DNA of 64,000 bases. Source: Haloplanus salinus. Lineage in GTDB: Archaea > Halobacteriota > Halobacteria > Halobacteriales > Haloferacaceae. Positions 3,588 to 62,482 of the stretch are shown here, piece after piece. The stretch is taken from the NCBI RefSeq assembly GCF_003336245.1, contig NZ_QPHM01000003.1, forward strand, positions 62,001 to 126,000, in the 5' to 3' direction. Positions within the stretch are counted from its first letter, which is position 1. Each line of letters opens with the position of its first letter. The position numbers and the translations under genes were made by a program. A model generated the notes under the pieces. That model saw only the letters and a list, made by a program, of their open reading frames with translations, was not told where the DNA came from and did no database searches.

Positions 3588-4616
3588 ATGCCGGCGCAAT
3601 GGACACGTCTGGGATCGTTCACCCGAAGCCGACGGGATGCCCCGGACCGTCGTCTGTGGGGGCTGACGGTGGCTGACGCGCTCCGGATCGGTGGCGCGTT
3701 GTTCGTCGGACTCGGAGCCCTGCTGGCGCTCGGCCTCGCACCGAACGTCCGGCGGTGGGTGGCCGCTCGCTCGTGGCCGACGACGAACGGGACGATCACG
3801 TCGTCGGCCGTCCTCGCCGGCGAGGCGGCGGACGACTACCGTGGCGAACTGCTCACCGGGACGGACGAGCGAGCGAACATCGGCGGCACCGGCGAGTACG
3901 TCCCGAGAGTCGAGTACGAGTACCGGGTCGACGGCATCCGGTACGAGGGCGACCGGATCTCTTGGACCGACGGTGCCTTCTCCCGGCGGTCGATGGCGGC
4001 CACGCTCGTCGGTCAGTACCCCCCTGGAACGATCGTTGAAGTACGATACGATCCGGCAGACCCGGGCGAGGCGGTGCTCCGGTCGACGACACGCTCGAAC
4101 CGGTGGCTGCTGGCTCTGGCGGCCGTCGGGTCGGCCGCGTTCGGGGGCTACGTCGCCGCGGGCTACCCGGCGGTTTCGTATCTCCCCCTCGGTGTGGGCG
4201 CGGTCGTCACTGCCGTCGGCGTGTGGCTCCTGTTCCGGGCGGTCAGCGCACGCCGGTGGCCAACGGCGCCGGCGACGCTCCAGTCCGTCGGGGCGAGGGA
4301 GTCACACCGCGTCGACGATGGCGTTCGGCACGGCAAGCGGTGGTTCCCAACCGTCGAGTACACGTATCGCGTCGACGGGGCGACGTACGTCGGCCACCGA
4401 CTGTGGTTCGGGGGGCGACGGTTCGACACCGCCGACGAGGCGCGGTCGGCCGCCGTCGACGCCATCGGAACGAACGCGGCGGGAGCGACGTTCGCCGTCC
4501 GGTACGACCCCGAGAACCCCGACGTGGCGACCGTCGAACCCGGCGGGCTCGCGACCGTCGCGACGTATCTCCTCGTCGGGATCGGATTTCTCGTCGGCGG
4601 GGCGATGATCGTCTGA
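3588..4616 (+). CDS. DUF3592-family membrane protein, two repeats
   Basis: About 342 residues. Two DUF3592-like repeats can be seen, each with a hydrophobic helix or helix pair followed by a beta-rich soluble part containing V/P-x-VEYxYRVDG and a final RYDPxNPxxA motif (first copy around residues 90-165, second around 265-325). Membrane segments lie near residues 30-50, 175-220 and at the very C-terminus. The start was taken at the ATG at 3588, because the upstream extension shares none of these features; a start a little further downstream (near the first hydrophobic segment) is also possible. DUF3592 proteins are membrane proteins of unknown function. It is followed by two GIDE-like membrane proteins, which suggests a membrane-associated module. 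Confidence 0.75.
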   Translation: MPAQWTRLGSFTRSRRDAPDRRLWGLTVADALRIGGALFVGLGALLALGLAPNVRRWVAARSWPTTNGTITSSAVLAGEAADDYRGELLTGTDERANIGGTGEYVPRVEYEYRVDGIRYEGDRISWTDGAFSRRSMAATLVGQYPPGTIVEVRYDPADPGEAVLRSTTRSNRWLLALAAVGSAAFGGYVAAGYPAVSYLPLGVGAVVTAVGVWLLFRAVSARRWPTAPATLQSVGARESHRVDDGVRHGKRWFPTVEYTYRVDGATYVGHRLWFGGRRFDTADEARSAAVDAIGTNAAGATFAVRYDPENPDVATVEPGGLATVATYLLVGIGFLVGGAMIV

Positions 4617-5827: not shown

Positions 5828-6583
5828 TCATCCGAAGAACGCGAAATACGCCCCGATCCCGTAGAACAGCAGGGCGGCGCCGGCGAGCAGCCACTGGCTC
5901 GCACCGAGGCTCTCGCTGAGGGCGTCTCGACTCATGTCGGAGACGAGGAACTCGCCGTCGCCACCGATCGTGTACGTTCCGTCGCCGTCCGACCGGGCCG
6001 GGCCGAGGACGTACCCGGTATCCCCCGGCTGTAACGCTCGACTCTCGTACTGTATCCCGCCGGTGCCGTGGACCGTCGCCTCGTTGATGGGCGTGTTGTG
6101 AATCCGCTTGGTTCCCGTCCCGTGGCACCGGTGCTCGTTCCCCTGTACCCGCTCGATGAACGTCAGGGCCTGCTCCCCGGGAGCTCTCCCGGCGTTCACG
6201 AACATCTCGTAGTGGGCCGACGAGAGGTGGAGGTCGGCCTCCGTGGGATCGACGTCGACCGAACCGTCGTCGTCGACGAGTCGGAACGGCACGGTCTGTC
6301 GGCCACTGTCGTCCACATCGACCGTCTCCTCGTCCGCGTCGTCCGGTTCTTCGACGTCCCATCGGACTGCGAGCGCGTCGGCACCCGTAACCGGGTGGGT
6401 GAGCGTGCCCGCGGGCCCCGCCTCGACTGTTCCGGACACCGCGACGACGTCGTCGGTCAGCGACGCAGTCGAACGCGTCTCCGTCGACGAGACGGCTCGG
6501 CTCGCCCGCCTTGCCCGGACGAACAGATACGTGGGAATCAGTGCGACGACGGCGAAGATCAATCCCGTGCCAACCGATGCCAT
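5828..6583 (-). CDS. GIDE-like membrane protein, paralogue of the previous gene
   Basis: 251 residues. An N-terminal hydrophobic helix (about 5-25) and a C-terminal one (about 228-250) flank a domain with V-x-VSGTVEAGP, THPVTGADALAVRW and PFRLVDDDGSVDVDP, matching the layout of the convergent gene at 4714. Between the helices is a polar insertion with HRCHGTGTKRIHNTP, which could be a surface loop. A GIDE-type fold with unknown function is the best fit. The ATG at 6583 opens directly before the membrane helix. The two paralogues face each other across about 300 bases that hold no recognisable gene. Confidence 0.6.
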   Translation of the reverse strand: MASVGTGLIFAVVALIPTYLFVRARRASRAVSSTETRSTASLTDDVVAVSGTVEAGPAGTLTHPVTGADALAVRWDVEEPDDADEETVDVDDSGRQTVPFRLVDDDGSVDVDPTEADLHLSSAHYEMFVNAGRAPGEQALTFIERVQGNEHRCHGTGTKRIHNTPINEATVHGTGGIQYESRALQPGDTGYVLGPARSDGDGTYTIGGDGEFLVSDMSRDALSESLGASQWLLAGAALLFYGIGAYFAFFG

Positions 6584-54097: not shown

Positions 54098-54292
54098 ATG
54101 ACAAAACACACCGCTCGAGATGAAGTGTGGAATCATGCCCTCCGGTATGCACTGCTTGAGGAATCTTTCAGCATACAGCGCATTAGAAGCGACATGACAA
54201 CTAGAGCCAGTTTCCGGACCATTCGCGATACGCTGAATTTCTCCGACCAACTCAAGCAAATGCAATACATCGGCTTGGGCCAGATGAATTAG
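54098..54292 (+). pseudogene. Winged-helix-like protein, 3' part replaced
   Basis: 64 codons. The first 45 are protein-like (DEVWNHALRYALLEESFSIQRI, RASFRTIRDTL; each given in part) and resemble a small winged-helix regulator, while the last 18 codons are the reverse complement of the vapC fragment on the opposite strand. A TATA-like tataatt lies about 15-20 bases upstream. The break is near 54232, so the natural C-terminus is lost. Confidence 0.4.
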
Positions 54293-54325
54293 CGGCCCTG
54301 TATCGGTGACAACGAGTCTGCTCAA
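54233..54325 (-). pseudogene. VapC-type PIN toxin, N-terminal fragment
   Basis: Starting at TTG 54325, which overlaps the antitoxin stop (TTGA), the frame reads RLVVTDTGPLIHLAQADVL then HLLELVGEI: the first PIN strand with its catalytic Asp (TDTGPLIHL). After about 30 residues the PIN sequence ends at the junction near 54232 and only random codons follow to 54032. The toxin is therefore dead. Confidence 0.55.
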
Positions 54326-54576
54326 GCGTGGAGTCCCCACTCCACGTCTTCTTCGATCGCGTCGCGAGCGGAGTCGACTTGGTCGACAACATCTGCGCCG
54401 AGTTCGTCGACCGCCGCCTCGCGTGTGAGGTCGCCATCGAGGTATCGACTGATAATCATATCGCGGTAGAGCGTCTCGACGCCCGTTTCGACGGCCTGTT
54501 GAATCACCTCGGATTCATCAATACCGAGGTGCTGGGCGAGTTCCCGCACCCGGTCGGAGACGCTATCGGTTGCCAT
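54322..54576 (-). CDS. VapB-like antitoxin
   Basis: 84 residues: SDRVRELAQHLGIDESEVIQQ, AVETGVETLYRDMIISRYLD and LTREAAVDELGADVVDQVD, the helical family of UPF0175-like/VapB antitoxins with HTH-like repeats, often paired with PIN toxins. The toxin gene overlaps it in the next frame but is truncated. The ATG 54576 is preceded about 20-30 bases upstream (minus strand) by a TATA-like tttatac. Confidence 0.65.
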   Translation of the reverse strand: MATDSVSDRVRELAQHLGIDESEVIQQAVETGVETLYRDMIISRYLDGDLTREAAVDELGADVVDQVDSARDAIEEDVEWGLHA

Positions 54577-54611
54577 ACGTCCGTGTTAGGTCCCAACCGG
54601 TATAAATGTCA

Positions 54612-54804
54612 TAGCGAGGCTGCCCGGGTTGTTGACCGAGACGTAAAGAACGTCCACGAGGAACTCAGTTGGCTTGCCCAACTGGGAATCATCTTTTTCA
54701 AAGAAGATGGTCAGAGCAAGCGTCCGGTCGTCTGGTTCGACGAACTCGTCATCAGCCTCCTGTTCGATCCCGACACTGGAGATACAGCGGCTGCAGCACC
54801 GTAG
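54612..54804 (+). pseudogene. C-terminal fragment of an HTH regulator
   Basis: The frame encodes EAARVVDRDVKNVHEELSWL, AQLGIIFFKEDGQSKRPVVW and FDELVISLLFD: the recognition helix and wing of MarR/HVO_A0114-type transcriptional regulators (VGRDxKxVHxELxxLxELG). The N-terminal part is absent, with a sharp end near 54605 at the promoter of the antitoxin gene. Truncated, non-functional. Confidence 0.5.
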
Positions 54805-54911: not shown

Positions 54912-55149
54912 GTCAGGTGCCTTTTCAGTTGGGTACAGTCGGAGCGGATTCAAACAATCCGTAGTGGAAGTCGCTGAGGAGCGTGATGACCTCCGGCTGT
55001 CTACCGTCGACGATCTCGTTCGAACTCTCTCTGATCGATCCCGCATTCACAGGCCAGCCGTTCGAGCAGCGGATTATCTAGGTTATCGTCATCGCTTAAA
55101 TACTGAACCGAACTATTCCTTATTGCCTCACATATTGCGGATCCTATAA

Positions 55150-55163
55150 TTCGATTTTTATCG
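55150..55163 (+). promoter_or_regulatory. TATA-box candidate for the TFB-like gene
   Basis: The sequence tcgatttttatcg lies 27-39 bases before the ATG at 55190, consistent with an archaeal TATA element; an agggggcgagg purine run follows just upstream of the start. Confidence 0.35.
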
Positions 55164-55189
55164 ACTCAAAGGGGGCGAGGAACGGCAAT

Positions 55190-55993
55190 ATGCACATGCT
55201 CATACACGTACTCGTCCCTGCAGCCGACGCGATCGAGGCGGTCGGCACCGCACGATTCGCGCTCGACCGATTGATCGGGATCGGTGAGGGCGCGAGTACT
55301 GCGTTCGACTACTACAAAACCCTGGACGAATCGACCGCACGGTATCGCGACCACCCTCGCTACGGTGGGCTCGATCCCGCGCATCGGCTGTCGTCAGTGA
55401 CCGGTGAACAACTGCTGGACGACGCGGTCGAGGCACAGACGACGTGGTTCGTCGAGACCGTCGCGACGCTTCGTGAGAAGCTCGACACGCTCGACCCGGC
55501 CGAGCTGATGGATGATGTCGACCTAGCCCGGTATGACTGCTACCGGCTTGGACAGTTCGCTGGGCCGTCGGTCTGGGTCTACGACGAACACGGCGCCGGG
55601 CTCCATTCCCGGAGTGCAGTCGACCGCTACATCGAGGACCGTGGCTCCGATTCGCTCTGGGTGGTGCCCGCCGACTTTCTCCCCCGGCTGGCCAGTGCCG
55701 TCGACGCCTCGGAGCGGGTCCGAGAGCGAGCGGCGCACCTCTGTGACTCGGAGGCCGTTGCCAGCCTCGCGAACGGACGCAAGCCCGCCGGCGTCGCCGC
55801 TGGCTGTCTATACTTCGCAGCGCGAGAACTGGATGGCTACGGGGCAGTTACGCAGTCGGAGCTCGCGGCGGCCGCTCGAATCTCCGATGTCAGTCTCCAG
55901 CACGTCTGGCAGAATCTCCAGGAACTCGCTCTGCCGGCGTGGCCCACTCCCGAGTCCAGTGCTCGGACCGATACAGAACGGAGGTCCCCATGA
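55190..55993 (+). CDS. Unknown N-terminal domain fused to a TFB-like cyclin repeat
   Basis: 267 residues. The first 165 belong to a haloarchaeal domain I cannot name: MLIHVLVPAADAIEAVGTAR, FDYYKTLDE, VETVATLREKLDTLDPAELM, DCYRLGQFAGPSVWVYDEHG. Residues 170-250 match the second cyclin fold of TFB/TFIIB (SLANGRKPAGVAAGCLYFAA, TQSELAAAARISDVSLQHVW), which in TFB contacts the BRE through its recognition helix. The zinc ribbon, B-finger and first cyclin repeat are absent. Inference: a DNA-binding modulator of transcription with the first domain as sensor. The stop overlaps the next ATG (ATGA), so the zinc-ribbon protein is coupled. Confidence 0.75.
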   Translation: MHMLIHVLVPAADAIEAVGTARFALDRLIGIGEGASTAFDYYKTLDESTARYRDHPRYGGLDPAHRLSSVTGEQLLDDAVEAQTTWFVETVATLREKLDTLDPAELMDDVDLARYDCYRLGQFAGPSVWVYDEHGAGLHSRSAVDRYIEDRGSDSLWVVPADFLPRLASAVDASERVRERAAHLCDSEAVASLANGRKPAGVAAGCLYFAARELDGYGAVTQSELAAAARISDVSLQHVWQNLQELALPAWPTPESSARTDTERRSP

Positions 55994-56226
55994 CTACCGG
56001 AGACTCCTGTCACGAGGGAGGTACGGAGATGATACTTGATCTGGCCGCCGCCGGATGGCAACCGGGAGATCCCTGTCTAGAATGTGGCCACTCGGTCGTT
56101 CACGCCATCGTCCGGGCTGGAGTCACCTTCCGGTCGGATGGGTCGTGGGCGTTGAAGGAGACGCTCGGCGTGTACGAAGCGTTCTGTTCGGAGTGTGACT
56201 GGCTCCCCCCGGTTTACTCTCCGTAA
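55990..56226 (+). CDS. Small zinc-ribbon protein coupled to the TFB-like gene
   Basis: 78 residues. Two CxxC pairs, CLECGH and CSECDW, about 40 residues apart, form a zinc-ribbon. Between them is a beta-rich part (SVVHAIVRAGVTFRSDGSW). The ATG overlaps the stop of the TFB-like gene. The pair could be a two-part regulator or RNA/DNA-binding complex. Not similar to any family I can name. Confidence 0.6.
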   Translation: MTTGDSCHEGGTEMILDLAAAGWQPGDPCLECGHSVVHAIVRAGVTFRSDGSWALKETLGVYEAFCSECDWLPPVYSP

Positions 56227-56375
56227 GACCACTGGCCGTTACACGTCTACTCATGCGGGGCGGGTCGTAAAGTCGACTCAGTGGTGGTTCAAGTCTCAAC
56301 CTGCGAGTTCGTTCTTCCATCAACGGGCAGATGGCATCGGCTCCTGACAGAAACAGCGTGCGAGATGCAGAGGAT

Positions 56376-56700
56376 CTATTCAGCACTGCACTCAACGCCG
56401 GTGATTTCGAAGCGTGCGTCACTGTCAGGCCCCTCAGTCACTCGAATATCCCAGCCGTGCGCGTCGGCAATCTCCTCCACGATATTCAGGCCGAACCCTG
56501 TACCGTCCTTTGTAGTCGAGTACCCTGCCTCAAACACATCCTCGCGCTTACCGGTGGGAACCACGGTCACAGTTACGTCGTCGCCACCGTGCTCAATGGC
56601 GTTGCGATACAGGTTTTCCAGAAGCTGTTGAAGCTGGCTCTGGTCGGCGCGTGTTGTCCGACTAATCTCAACCGAGAGCGTTGCCTACCGGGTGCTCCAC
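56376..56700 (-). pseudogene. Histidine-kinase HATPase fragment
   Basis: The frame encodes QQLLENLYRNAIEHGGDDVT (N box) and, after a deletion of the G1 region, FEAGYSTTKDGTGFGLNIVE (G2 box) followed by EIADAHGWDIRVTEGPDSDA to the stop at 56376. Upstream the frame has an in-frame TAG near 56690. It is a deleted C-terminal part of a kinase. Confidence 0.55.
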
Positions 56701-57069: not shown

Positions 57070-57123
57070 GTGGGATATAGCCCTCATAGTCACAGTAATA
57101 CACCGGATCTTAGAAGATATGGC

Positions 57124-57864
57124 ATGGGTATTCATGCAACTTCGACGACAGAACCGATCCCCGTCGATCAAATGATCCCTGCACGTTCGCAGATCCCCAC
57201 CGACCCCGACCCAGGAAACTACGTCGTTGTTGATGTCACACAGTTCTCAACAACCGTGCCGGAGCTGTTTGCCAACGGGGCAAAATACGTCCACATCACC
57301 GAGAACCGTGGCGAGGAACCCGAATTCCAACAGGAGCATCCAGAGGCAAAGATCGGCGGCGGTTCCGGCCCCGAGTACCGTGGCGAACCCGGCTATGACT
57401 TTTTTAATTCTCCGAGCTTCGTCCAAGATATTCCTCTCGATGGTCGCCCGACGGCAATGACCTCAACGAACGGGGGTAACGCGGTGACGGATCTCCGGTT
57501 AGCCGGCGATGACACCGTCACGGTCTATGTTGGTGGGTTAACCAATAGTGCCGCGCTGGCGGAACATCTCCGGAAACAGACGGAACCGACATACTTTGTC
57601 GCTGCTGGCTCCGACGGAAATCCTTCACCCGAGGACATAGCGGGGGCAATGTATATTGCTCGACATCTCTATGGAGATCCGCCGACTGATCACCACCGGA
57701 CGATCTACCGTGAGATAGTCGAGTATTCGAAGGGAGCCAAGTACGAACACAAACCACAGATCAAACAAACTGACCTCTATGAATACGCCCTAAATTTCGA
57801 CAGTCGTAATGTTATCCCGAAGCTGGAGGGTCAGAAGCTCTACGACGTGTCAGAGGGCGAGTGA
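57124..57864 (+). CDS. 2-phosphosulfolactate phosphatase (ComB)-like protein
   Basis: 246 residues from ATG 57124. ComB-family features: VVVDVTQFSTTVPELFANGA near the N-terminus (matching the D-V-x-R/Q-x-S/T-T-x-x-x-A/L-x-NGA signature), a central GEPGYDFFNSPS and RPTAMTSTNGGNAVTDL, and a C-terminal AGAMYIARHLYGDP. ComB hydrolyses 2-phospho-3-sulfolactate in coenzyme M synthesis; haloarchaea do not make methane, so the natural substrate here is unknown. The stop overlaps the PHP gene start (TGATG), showing translational coupling. First gene of a compact set with a PHP phosphoesterase and an ECF transporter. Confidence 0.75.
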   Translation: MGIHATSTTEPIPVDQMIPARSQIPTDPDPGNYVVVDVTQFSTTVPELFANGAKYVHITENRGEEPEFQQEHPEAKIGGGSGPEYRGEPGYDFFNSPSFVQDIPLDGRPTAMTSTNGGNAVTDLRLAGDDTVTVYVGGLTNSAALAEHLRKQTEPTYFVAAGSDGNPSPEDIAGAMYIARHLYGDPPTDHHRTIYREIVEYSKGAKYEHKPQIKQTDLYEYALNFDSRNVIPKLEGQKLYDVSEGE

Positions 57865-58634
57865 TGCAAACGGATATCCACACACATACGACGTTCTCCG
57901 ACGGGTCAGACCTGTCCGCAATGATCGATGCGGCCGAGACGGCAGGGCTTGACGCGCTTGGACTCACCGATCACTGTATTGTAACCGACGACGCCTTCGG
58001 TCGCCGTGCGACATACGACCTCGTCAAAACGTACGAGCAGCGTCGGGAGGCTGTGGACGCTGCCCGCGAAGAGACGACCCTTACGCTGTACGACGCTGCT
58101 GAGGTGAGTTACGTTGCCAGTGAGGCGGACGCGATCCGGGAATTTCTGTCGACAGCTGACTTCGAGTACACCATTGGCAGCGTCCACTTTGCCGATCAGT
58201 ATGACTACACCGCTAACGCGCAGTACGCCGAGGCGGAGGACGAGACGTGCCGAGCGGCGGTCGAACGCTACTACGACGCCGTCGTTGAGCTCGTTGAATC
58301 CGAACTGTTCGACGTGCTCGGTCATCTCGACCTACCCGAACGACTACCCACCCTGCGTGGGTTCTCAATCCCCGACGACTACGAGCGCGTCGCCGCCGCA
58401 CTGGCGGACTCCCGAACGGTTCCTGAAATCAATGCCGGTCGAGTGAATCGATCGCTGAACCGGGTGCACCCGGATCCGGGGATGATCGCTTCGTTCTCCA
58501 ATCACGGTATCAAATTCGTCCTCGGCACCGACAGTCACAGGCCCGACGAAATCGTTACACGAGTGCCGGCTCTCGAAGCGGTCGTCGATCGGTCGACGAT
58601 CGATATAATCGAATTCGATTCTCTTCTGTCGTAG
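57864..58634 (+). CDS. PHP-domain phosphoesterase (HisJ/PolC-like)
   Basis: 256 residues. The PHP metal motifs are complete: DIHTHTTFSDG at the start (H-x-H), LGLTDHC (third His), the Glu in AAEVSYV, IGSVHFAD (further His), LGHLDLPERLP and LGTDSHRPDE (Asp and His near the end). Family members are metal-dependent phosphatases such as histidinol-phosphate phosphatase. It overlaps the ComB-like gene by one base (TGATG). Inference: a second phosphatase step on the same compound. Confidence 0.85.
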   Translation: MQTDIHTHTTFSDGSDLSAMIDAAETAGLDALGLTDHCIVTDDAFGRRATYDLVKTYEQRREAVDAAREETTLTLYDAAEVSYVASEADAIREFLSTADFEYTIGSVHFADQYDYTANAQYAEAEDETCRAAVERYYDAVVELVESELFDVLGHLDLPERLPTLRGFSIPDDYERVAAALADSRTVPEINAGRVNRSLNRVHPDPGMIASFSNHGIKFVLGTDSHRPDEIVTRVPALEAVVDRSTIDIIEFDSLLS

Positions 58635-58780
58635 CGGATGTGACTGCCGTGGTCGTATCTGTACCACCGTTCGCTGGGAGTATCAGCCGTATGTATATAC
58701 GCAACTATGAGCTCTATTGCATCAAAATAGGATTATTGCTGTGTTTGCTCTCTTATGATCGTTCTGAATCGGGATAGAAA

Positions 58781-58790
58781 TCACATATAA
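58781..58790 (+). promoter_or_regulatory. TATA-box candidate for the ECF genes
   Basis: cacatataag lies 36-45 bases before the ATG at 58826, in a 190-base A/T-rich gap after the PHP gene. The ECF genes may thus have their own promoter in addition to read-through. Confidence 0.4.
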
Positions 58791-58825
58791 GCGATTAAAA
58801 TGGATTCTCTACCGTTTGCACCTGC

Positions 58826-59689
58826 ATGGCAAGCTACACATCGGCTGAGTCGCGCAGTCCGTTCAGCTTCGACCACAGGGACATGATGGCGTTCATACTC
58901 ATCATGTCTCTGCATGGTATGCAAAGTATGATCACGGAGCTATTACCGAGTATATCCGGGGTGCTGGACGTCCAGATCGGACCGTTCTGGTTCGTCGCAA
59001 TGTCGGTAGCACTGTTGTTCCGGTCGTTCTGGGCGTGTCTGGCAATTCCCGTTGGGATCACCGTCTTCGGTGAGATCCTGATCGGGGACTTCAACGCCCT
59101 TGGGACGGTCGAAGGGCTAATCGTGATCACTCTGTCGTGGTTCTTTGCAATGTCGCTCATCACGGATCCGATGGATCCGAAACAGATCGCTGTGGTCGGC
59201 TTCATAGCGAAGGCCATGGAAGAGATCGGTGCGTGGTTCATCGACGTCGGGAAATTCTACGTTGGTGTCGAAGAGATCGACGCAATTGCGTGGCTACCCG
59301 AAACCGTCTGGGTGACTGAGGGTGTCGGTGCGTTCACCCAGATCATCGTTGCCGGGATCATCTTTGGGGCGATCCCGACCTACTTCCTCTACCCACGGCT
59401 GCGTGGGAAGATCGAACCGCTGCTGGGGATGACGCCTGTCGAAGGCCGTGACGGCCCAATGTTCACGCGCACCTCGGCGAAGCGATTGCTCGCGTGGGTA
59501 GTGTTCCTCCCGTTGGCCTTCGTCATCGAGGCCTTCAGCGAGACCAGCGGTGGACTCATCACCTTCACCCCGCAGTTCGTCGAGACCTACGGCCAAGAGT
59601 TCCTGTTCGTCCCGATTCTGGCCGCCGCGGTGGTCGCCTTCAGCGTGGTCGCCTACCGTCAGCGCAAGACGGACTCGCTGAACAACTAA
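58826..59689 (+). CDS. Candidate ECF transporter S component
   Basis: 287 residues with about seven hydrophobic segments, e.g. SMITELLPSISGVLDVQIG, FWFVAMSVALLFRSFWACLA, TVEGLIVITLSWFFAMSLI and GVGAFTQIIVAGIIFGAIPT. The size and layout are those of a substrate-binding S component, and the fused ECF ATPases start 22 bases downstream. It does not clearly match any S family I know (RibU, ThiT, BioY, NikM), so the substrate is unknown. The alternative is an unrelated membrane partner of the complex. Confidence 0.6.
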   Translation: MASYTSAESRSPFSFDHRDMMAFILIMSLHGMQSMITELLPSISGVLDVQIGPFWFVAMSVALLFRSFWACLAIPVGITVFGEILIGDFNALGTVEGLIVITLSWFFAMSLITDPMDPKQIAVVGFIAKAMEEIGAWFIDVGKFYVGVEEIDAIAWLPETVWVTEGVGAFTQIIVAGIIFGAIPTYFLYPRLRGKIEPLLGMTPVEGRDGPMFTRTSAKRLLAWVVFLPLAFVIEAFSETSGGLITFTPQFVETYGQEFLFVPILAAAVVAFSVVAYRQRKTDSLNN

Positions 59690-59711
59690 CTGGCTGCCGA
59701 TTTTTTATTTT

Positions 59712-61526
59712 ATGAGCGCACACAGCATCATCGTTGACGACCTGACATTCCAGTACCCCGGTGGCGACGAATCGGTCCTACGGGGGGCGGATCTGCGTAT
59801 CGATTCGGGCGAGTTCACCGCTGTCGTCGGCGGGAACGGCAGCGGGAAAACGACGCTCTGTAAAACGTTCAACGGACTGATTCCCCACTTTTTCGACGGG
59901 ACGTTCGAGGGGTCAGTCCGTGTCGGCGGCACTGACACCCGCGAGTCCAATGTCGGGGAGCTCTCCCGTCAGGTTGGCTACGTGTTCCAGGACTTCGAAA
60001 ACCAACTCGTCCAAGAGACGGTACGAGACGACGTCGAGTTTGCACCGCTGAACTACGGGTTCGACGACTATGAGGAACGGGCCACACGTGCTCTCGAGAT
60101 GGTTGGCCTCGCCGGGCTCGAAGATCGGTTCATTTGGGAATTAAGCGGTGGCCAGCAACACCTCGTTGCACTTGCGGGAGTCCTTGCGATGGATCCCGAA
60201 TTCGTATTGGTTGACGAACCGGCTGCCCAACTAGACCCACGAAACGCCCGCGAGGCATACGAACGACTCCGCTGGCTGCACGAAGAGCGAAATAAGACGA
60301 TCGTCGTGATCGAACACCACTCGGAATTCATAGCGGAGTATTGCGACGAGATGGTGTTGGTCTCGGACGGCAGTGTCGCCTGGAAGGAGCCAGTTAGGAT
60401 CGGTCTCAATCGACTCGACGATCTGCATGCGGAAAATATTCATCCACCACAGGTCACCCAGATCGCCGATGCTGTCCCCGCCAGGATGGCGACTGTCTCG
60501 GGTGACCGCTATCCGGTGACCGTTGAGGAGGCTGAATCGGCGCTGCCGAACGAAGACCGATCGGTGACGACCGAGCCGGCACCAGACAGTCGATCAAGTG
60601 GGATAGCAGCCGATAACGACGACCGTGCATCGGTCATCACGCTCCGGAACGTCGGTCACGGATACCCGACGCTTCGCGAAGGGCACAACCAGGTACTCGA
60701 GGGGTTAGACCTCGATCTGTACGCAGGCGACCGCGTTGCACTCGTCGGGGCGAACGGGTCGGGAAAATCGACGCTACTTCGCCTGCTTACTGGTCTCGAG
60801 TCACCGGATGAAGGCACGGTTACCGTGTTGGGGCAGGAGACGAACGACGCATTGCCCGAAGAACTCGCGGACGACACGGTCTACATTCACCAGAATCCGG
60901 AGAAGATGTTCGTCGAGGATACTGTGCGTAAGGATATCGGCTACTATCTCAAAAATCGTGGTACGGACGATGTCGAAGATCGTGTTGAGGAAATACTGAC
61001 GTACCTTGATCTGGAGGAACTGGCCGATCGCGACGGGCGACTAATGAGCCTGGGCCAGCAGCGGCGCGCCTCGCTTGGGATCGGATTAGCGACCGATCCA
61101 ACGGTCGTTTTGCTCGACGAACCGACCGGAAGTCTCGATCTACAGAGCCGCCAAGAGGTTACAGGGATCCTCCAGAAAGCCGAGAGCCGCGTCGAGACGG
61201 TCGTCATCGCGTCCCATGATCTTCAACTGGTCGCTGAGTGGGCCGATCGGGTGATCGTGCTTGACGAGGGGAACGTGATTGCGGATGCGCTGCCGAAAAC
61301 GGTGTTCGACGATTCCGAACTCCTCGCGGCGGCAGACCTCAGGCAGCCGCAAGTGGTCGCGTTGAGCGAGCGGCTCGGGTTTGATTCGCCGGTACTCACT
61401 ACTGACGCGATGGTTGAAGCGATTACGAAAGAAACGGATTCGGCTATCGCACCTGCAATCGACGAGGATAGAGTACCCGACAGCGAGACCCCGAACGGAG
61501 CCCAGAGGCCCATGGAGGAACAATGA
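59712..61526 (+). CDS. ECF transporter ATPase, fused EcfA-EcfA'
   Basis: 604 residues with two ABC domains. Domain 1: Walker A GGNGSGKTTLC (residues 40-50), Q-loop VFQDFENQLV, signature ELSGGQQHLVALAG, Walker B VLVDEPAAQLDPRN. Domain 2: Walker A GANGSGKSTLL (about 345), signature MSLGQQRRASLGIG, Walker B VLLDEPTGSLDLQ. Between them is a polar linker (about 270-310). ECF modules normally use two separate ATPases; the fused form is frequent in archaea. The stop overlaps EcfT (ATGA), so translation is coupled. Confidence 0.92.
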   Translation: MSAHSIIVDDLTFQYPGGDESVLRGADLRIDSGEFTAVVGGNGSGKTTLCKTFNGLIPHFFDGTFEGSVRVGGTDTRESNVGELSRQVGYVFQDFENQLVQETVRDDVEFAPLNYGFDDYEERATRALEMVGLAGLEDRFIWELSGGQQHLVALAGVLAMDPEFVLVDEPAAQLDPRNAREAYERLRWLHEERNKTIVVIEHHSEFIAEYCDEMVLVSDGSVAWKEPVRIGLNRLDDLHAENIHPPQVTQIADAVPARMATVSGDRYPVTVEEAESALPNEDRSVTTEPAPDSRSSGIAADNDDRASVITLRNVGHGYPTLREGHNQVLEGLDLDLYAGDRVALVGANGSGKSTLLRLLTGLESPDEGTVTVLGQETNDALPEELADDTVYIHQNPEKMFVEDTVRKDIGYYLKNRGTDDVEDRVEEILTYLDLEELADRDGRLMSLGQQRRASLGIGLATDPTVVLLDEPTGSLDLQSRQEVTGILQKAESRVETVVIASHDLQLVAEWADRVIVLDEGNVIADALPKTVFDDSELLAAADLRQPQVVALSERLGFDSPVLTTDAMVEAITKETDSAIAPAIDEDRVPDSETPNGAQRPMEEQ

Positions 61527-62482
61527 GTTATCTCGACGCCCTTACCGATATCTCGATCGCCGATCTCAAGGTCGACTTGATGCGGACGGCCTACGACAAC
61601 GAGGACGCCTTGCTGAACACGTTCGATCCACGGGTAGTGCTGTTGTGGACGATACTGTTCATGATCATTCCGTGGTTATTCTACGATACGCTGTCCCTGG
61701 TCGTACTGCTGGCGGCAGCGTTCGTTCTTGCAGCCCTCTCACAGGTGAGCAAGTATCTGCTCGCATTGCTCCTGTTCGGCCAGCTCACAAACATTGGCTT
61801 CTTTGTCGTATTGGTCCCGCTGATGGGTGGATTGCTCACCGGGTGGGGATACCTCGGTAGCAATTCCTCACGATTGGTCGACGGAGTCGTAGCACTTGAT
61901 CCGTCGGTGTTCGTTGAGGCTAGCGGTATTGTTGCCGGTGCTGTCGGGGAGGGGATCAACACGGCACTGACAAGTCAGCAGGCCGGGATCGACGCCGTCG
62001 GTGCCGTCGTGCCGTTTTTCCTCAAGCTTACCATCATCTCGGTGATCAGCTTAGCAGTCTTCTCAGCGATGAGCCCCCAAAAAATCAGTCAAGGAATGCT
62101 CCGGCTTGGGGTCCCTCGCCAGCTTACGTTTGCAATCGCCTACGGCTACCGAATGATGCCGCTGCTCGTTGAGGAGTATCACGCACTTATCAATTCGTTC
62201 CGGCTTCGAAGCAAAGTTCCCGAAGACAAGGGTATACTGAATTGGCGGTATTTGTACTACCTGCTGAAACTTTCCATCAAAGCGTTCTATCCGCTCATTT
62301 TCAATGTCGCTAAACGCTCTCGGGTCACTGTCGAAGCGATGGAAACGAAGGGATTTTCTCAGTCTCTGGGCGACCCGAAAAGCCGCGAACTACGAACTGA
62401 CGATATGATGATTCGGACCCGTGATGTTTCGTTCGTCTTCGGTTCGTTGTTGTTTGTTTTGGGGGTTTGGATGTTCCTCTGA
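61523..62482 (+). CDS. ecfT: ECF transporter transmembrane component EcfT
   Basis: 319 residues. Membrane helices are at about 35-75, 85-120, 165-195 and near the end, plus the cytoplasmic coupling region containing SFRLRSKVPEDKGI and AKRSRVTVEAMETKGF, the site of the two conserved Arg motifs that contact the ATPases. The CbiQ/EcfT topology is complete. Starts within the stop of the ATPase gene (ATGA overlap). With the S component and ATPases it makes a complete ECF importer. Confidence 0.85.
   Translation: MSYLDALTDISIADLKVDLMRTAYDNEDALLNTFDPRVVLLWTILFMIIPWLFYDTLSLVVLLAAAFVLAALSQVSKYLLALLLFGQLTNIGFFVVLVPLMGGLLTGWGYLGSNSSRLVDGVVALDPSVFVEASGIVAGAVGEGINTALTSQQAGIDAVGAVVPFFLKLTIISVISLAVFSAMSPQKISQGMLRLGVPRQLTFAIAYGYRMMPLLVEEYHALINSFRLRSKVPEDKGILNWRYLYYLLKLSIKAFYPLIFNVAKRSRVTVEAMETKGFSQSLGDPKSRELRTDDMMIRTRDVSFVFGSLLFVLGVWMFL

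Follow-up and report, generated by a model that had tools for sequence, protein, structure and literature searches.

A gene of the archaeon Haloplanus salinus that joins the greater part of one plasmid protein to a single repeat of the transcription factor TFB is, with a probability that we put at about 87%, a deletion chimera of two plasmid genes that now survives as a nonfunctional, decaying remnant. It lies in a stretch of 64,000 nucleotides (here called the window; positions 62,001 to 126,000 of contig NZ_QPHM01000003.1). An ancestor carried a plasmid cluster with the order gene A, gene B, a complete TFB and a small zinc-ribbon gene. On this large plasmid a deletion of some 1.39 kb between short matching stretches, one where gene A ends and the other where the second TFB repeat begins, took out the final codons of gene A, the whole of gene B and all that precedes the second repeat in the TFB (zinc ribbon, B-finger region and first repeat), the reading frame being kept across the join by chance.

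The fused open reading frame (55190-55993, forward strand) encodes 267 amino acids, and consists of codons 1-160 of gene A (55190-55669) followed on the same strand by the second cyclin repeat and C-terminal tail of a TFB (55670-55993). The preliminary description of this DNA had recognized the second TFB cyclin fold in residues about 170-250, and two checks that it proposed, a profile comparison with TFB and a structure prediction of the fused protein alone, bear this out. Residues 159-244 match the TFIIB repeat of Pfam (PF00382) with E=1e-11, which exceeds the gathering score and is far above chance, and phmmer aligns residues 155-245 with the second repeat of the Pyrococcus woesei TFB (1d3u_B, E=1.1e-13) but no more than weakly with its first. 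The claim was to be abandoned if no cyclin fold could be matched; it stands because the top structural matches of the AlphaFold model (mean pLDDT 72) are TFIIB cyclin folds (1d3u_B, E=3.8e-4; 1vol_A, 1.9 A over 84 columns). The repeat spans about residues 159-249, and its last two predicted helices (residues 222-228 and 233-245; 55853-55924, forward strand) form the region in which TFB has its recognition helix. The fused protein thus shares with haloarchaeal TFBs the second cyclin repeat and its helix-turn-helix, both in sequence and in predicted fold, but it lacks their zinc ribbon (PF08271, for which a Pfam search gave no match), B-finger region and first repeat, just as had been supposed. 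The second TFB repeat alone, deprived of these three elements, cannot act as a normal TFB.

The N-terminal 165 residues had been set apart as a domain without an assigned identity, and residues 1-162 indeed match nothing in Pfam, NCBIfam or the PDB. Weak matches to DUF2460, to a designed bundle and to HARP RNase P (from Pfam, the PDB and Foldseek) were judged to be due to chance. These 162 residues do, however, align with the gene A family, and this part of the protein is present in 75 of the 148 genomes of the taxonomic family that were searched; it also accounts for most of the 165 plasmid records that match the fused protein. The 38 other members of the gene A family that were read through are all separate proteins, usually of 163-165 amino acids, and nearly all of them end in VPADVHY or VPADVHF. 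The fused protein diverges from them exactly at VPAD, where the final VHY and the stop codon have been exchanged for TFB sequence. A standalone member, modelled with a pLDDT of 86, has this conserved C-terminus in its last beta strand, and Foldseek found no match in the PDB for the modelled fold. Plasmids of haloarchaea widely carry gene A, often near genes for TFB, a sliding clamp and DUF6166 (loci L064, 7001-11905, and L066, 7001-7492), and it also occurs on the Halobacterium salinarum R1 plasmids (NC_010366.1 and NC_010369.1). About 30 bases upstream of the start codon lies a TTTATC element (55157-55162, forward strand), a probable promoter box of gene A that is conserved in nine of nine sequences, the window included; the chimera could therefore still be transcribed, and its expression from this promoter is possible.

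In every relative found, the two halves of the fused frame are two separate genes, and the intact order is that of gene A, gene B, the complete TFB and the zinc-ribbon gene. The cluster was seen on plasmids of Haloplanus sp. GX21 (NZ_CP147875.1), Haloplanus rubicundus (NZ_CP031151.1) and Halorarius halobius (NZ_CP101162.1), in the last of which an annotated transposase gene separates the TFB from the ribbon sequence; the genomes G074 and G075 have the same gene order, with A-B-TFB intact. Its complete TFB measures about 337-343 amino acids, with a zinc ribbon and two cyclin repeats. On these Haloplanus and Halorarius plasmids and in the Haloglomus irregulare contig NZ_QMDX01000007.1 (L062), the genes are of ordinary form, with 165 amino acids ending in VPADVHY for gene A, about 179 for gene B and about 342 for the TFB. 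The TFB of L062 matches the TFIIB zinc ribbon (PF08271) with E=1e-9 and has two repeats (E=6e-29), as against the single repeat of the fused protein. The DNA identity of the window to the L062 contig is 91% in gene A, 92% in the TFB end and 94% in the ribbon gene. An apparent mixed origin, suggested by identities to relatives of 75% in the TFB part and 92% in the A part, was discarded once this contig, with all parts at 91-94%, had removed the difficulty. The window has the same gene order as the plasmid clusters, at about 90% DNA identity in A and up to 94% in the TFB end and ribbon gene, but gene B is absent between A and TFB, and with it two thirds of the TFB. Descent from a virus or a plasmid had been offered as an alternative to a split factor. 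The plasmid half of that suggestion holds, both parts of the protein coming from a haloarchaeal plasmid cluster; the viral half was dropped, as a search of phage records with the fused protein returned no match.

The deletion, its junction and its rarity are shown by what follows, while the route of repair, the lack of function and any expression are inferred. Window positions 54938-55674, which include the gene A portion, align with L062 at 3749-4486 (90.8% identity), and positions 55665-56281, which include the TFB portion, align with 5865-6481 of the same contig (93.5%), colinearly with the upstream match; the 1,388 bp of L062 that separate the two flanking matches are missing from the window. 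It is not the relatives that are in the derived state: their extra 1.39 kb contains the regular end of A, the whole of B and the front part of an ordinary TFB. The breakpoint falls within a short direct repeat, TGCCC(A/G)CCGA (55665-55674), and the sites that distinguish the two sources are of the A type through 55664 and of the TFB type from 55670; between them stands the TGCCC, identical in both sources and contained in the near-repeat of 10 bases. The join looks seamless because gene A and TFB both encode PAD at this place in most relatives. A degenerate pattern of the junction occurs in one of 170 genomes of the family, that of the window itself, and no second full-length fused match was seen across 392 genomes of the order, in each of which the best candidates were scored.

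Loss of the DNA between short repeats is what would be expected of microhomology-mediated end joining or of replication slippage. The former is active in Haloferax volcanii, where it is always tied to deletions (PMC7776575); there, as here, the sequence between short matches is lost and one copy of the match is kept, the difference being that the event in the window is inferred from its product and was not observed. Since the deletion spared both gene A's promoter and the ATGA coupling to the zinc-ribbon gene, the fused protein may still be made. Such a protein is without the parts of TFB that are required to recruit RNA polymerase and without the conserved end of protein A, and most likely the gene is a nonfunctional remnant in a portion of a large replicon that is itself decaying.

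Signs of decay surround the fusion. Upstream of it are the tail of an ATPase gene (54938-55035, forward strand), of which about 32 codons are left from the 469 amino acids encoded in L062; a 3' remnant of another plasmid gene (54615-54804, forward strand), whose counterpart in L046 (2790-3248) encodes 152 amino acids; and what remains of a two-gene unit (54236-54667, reverse strand) that is 98% identical to Haloplanus plasmids and includes a gene, annotated there as a nucleic acid-binding protein, that is shortened in the window. The counterparts of the last two segments stand well apart in relatives. A further sign of decay lies on the 3' side, where a short piece of the ATPase domain of a histidine kinase is left (56376-56570). 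The cluster decays elsewhere too, as follows from frameshifts in gene A of L062 and in the ribbon gene of G074. Beyond these remnants the window holds an apparently intact gene set (57070-62482) resembling an ECF-type transporter operon and encoding a 2-phosphosulfolactate phosphatase-like protein, a PHP-domain protein, a membrane protein, a double ABC ATPase and a CbiQ-like protein.

The cell can presumably do without this TFB, since nine other loci in the genome match the TFB repeat and a paralogous B-TFB cluster is found on contig C4. That second cluster (L077, 1570-5431) contains the sole relative of gene B in the H. salinus genome, a paralogue at 53% identity, together with a TFB of 426 amino acids, a sliding-clamp-like gene and an uncharacterized gene. 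At another TFB-like locus (L005; G000:C1:1621257-1621520) a TGA stands inside the match, which may mark either a damaged TFB or the end of the match. A plasmid of Haloplanus sp. GDY1 carries a gene annotated as TFIIB family whose product has about 271 amino acids (L073, 5500-6315) and which may be another shortened TFB or one with a wrongly placed start.

Changes assigned to the window branch number 18 synonymous and 10 nonsynonymous in the A part, against 3 and 10 in the TFB and ribbon parts (Fisher p=0.02, a weak difference). This skew hints at a relaxed constraint on the TFB and ribbon parts, the polarity of the changes being weak because the outgroups are distant. Counting against a remnant is a pairwise dN/dS of 0.22 between the TFB part and its counterpart in L062, although this value may mostly record evolution that preceded the deletion or took place on the branch of L062.

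It is against this background that a working chimera has to be judged. One could imagine an expressed new protein that has found a job at promoter elements beside TBP, as a regulator or competitor that does not recruit the polymerase; its frame is open, its cyclin fold is intact down to the region of the recognition helix, the upstream promoter box is conserved and the coupling to the next gene has been kept. An open frame is not, however, evidence of function, since about one in three unconstrained frames would be expected to stay open after some 35 changes. Moreover, the chimera is confined to one genome, nonsynonymous changes predominate in its TFB and ribbon parts along the window branch, the genes nearby are decaying and the conserved C-terminal strand of A has been severed. 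We consider a functional protein improbable on these grounds. Its more elaborate form, in which the promoter of gene A drives a newborn one-repeat regulator that sits beside TBP and rivals the full TFBs, with domain A contributing a new partner or signal, is a shade less probable again.

An error in the assembly of the H. salinus genome could in principle have produced the same junction, but we regard this as very unlikely. The joining repeat, of about 10 bp, should be too short by itself to mislead an assembler; the assembly comprises 4 contigs and is 99.9% complete; and the sequence diverges from L062 by about 7-9% on either side of the junction, so that a stray read from L062 is not its source.

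There remains the zinc-ribbon gene, which encodes 78 amino acids (55990-56226, forward strand) with two CxxC motifs (CLEC and CSEC) and was the original partner of the complete TFB. The preliminary description was right that it overlaps the fused frame by an ATGA stop/start (55990-55993, forward strand). The same overlap follows the complete TFB in L062 and on the GX21 plasmid, where the ribbon gene likewise begins 4 bases ahead of the TFB end, and the window has thus retained the coupling of ribbon gene to TFB end that belongs to the cluster. The proposal built on this overlap, that a transcription factor has been split or reassigned and that the 78-residue protein provides the missing ribbon of the lone repeat in trans, has the adjacency of the genes, the ATGA and the CxxC motifs in its favor but is rejected as the least credible of all, because in relatives the homologous gene is coupled to complete TFBs that have a ribbon of their own and so did not originate as a substitute for one, because a profile search places the 78-residue protein below every TFIIB zinc-ribbon model and because the first repeat and B-finger are absent from both proteins alike.

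Once the gene is read as a deletion chimera, a tempting but mistaken instance of a basal transcription factor in two pieces falls away. In its place stands a clear illustration of how the loss of DNA between short repeats, when the frame is kept, makes a chimeric gene that domain annotation would label as a member of the TFIIB family; the event is ordinary in kind, and the product is neat. In a literature search of incomplete coverage we found no description of the fusion, of an archaeal TFB with one repeat or of the plasmid cluster. The more lasting value of the analysis lies in the recognition of that cluster, a conserved set of gene A, gene B, TFB and zinc-ribbon gene, with a sliding-clamp gene nearby, on the plasmids of the haloarchaea.
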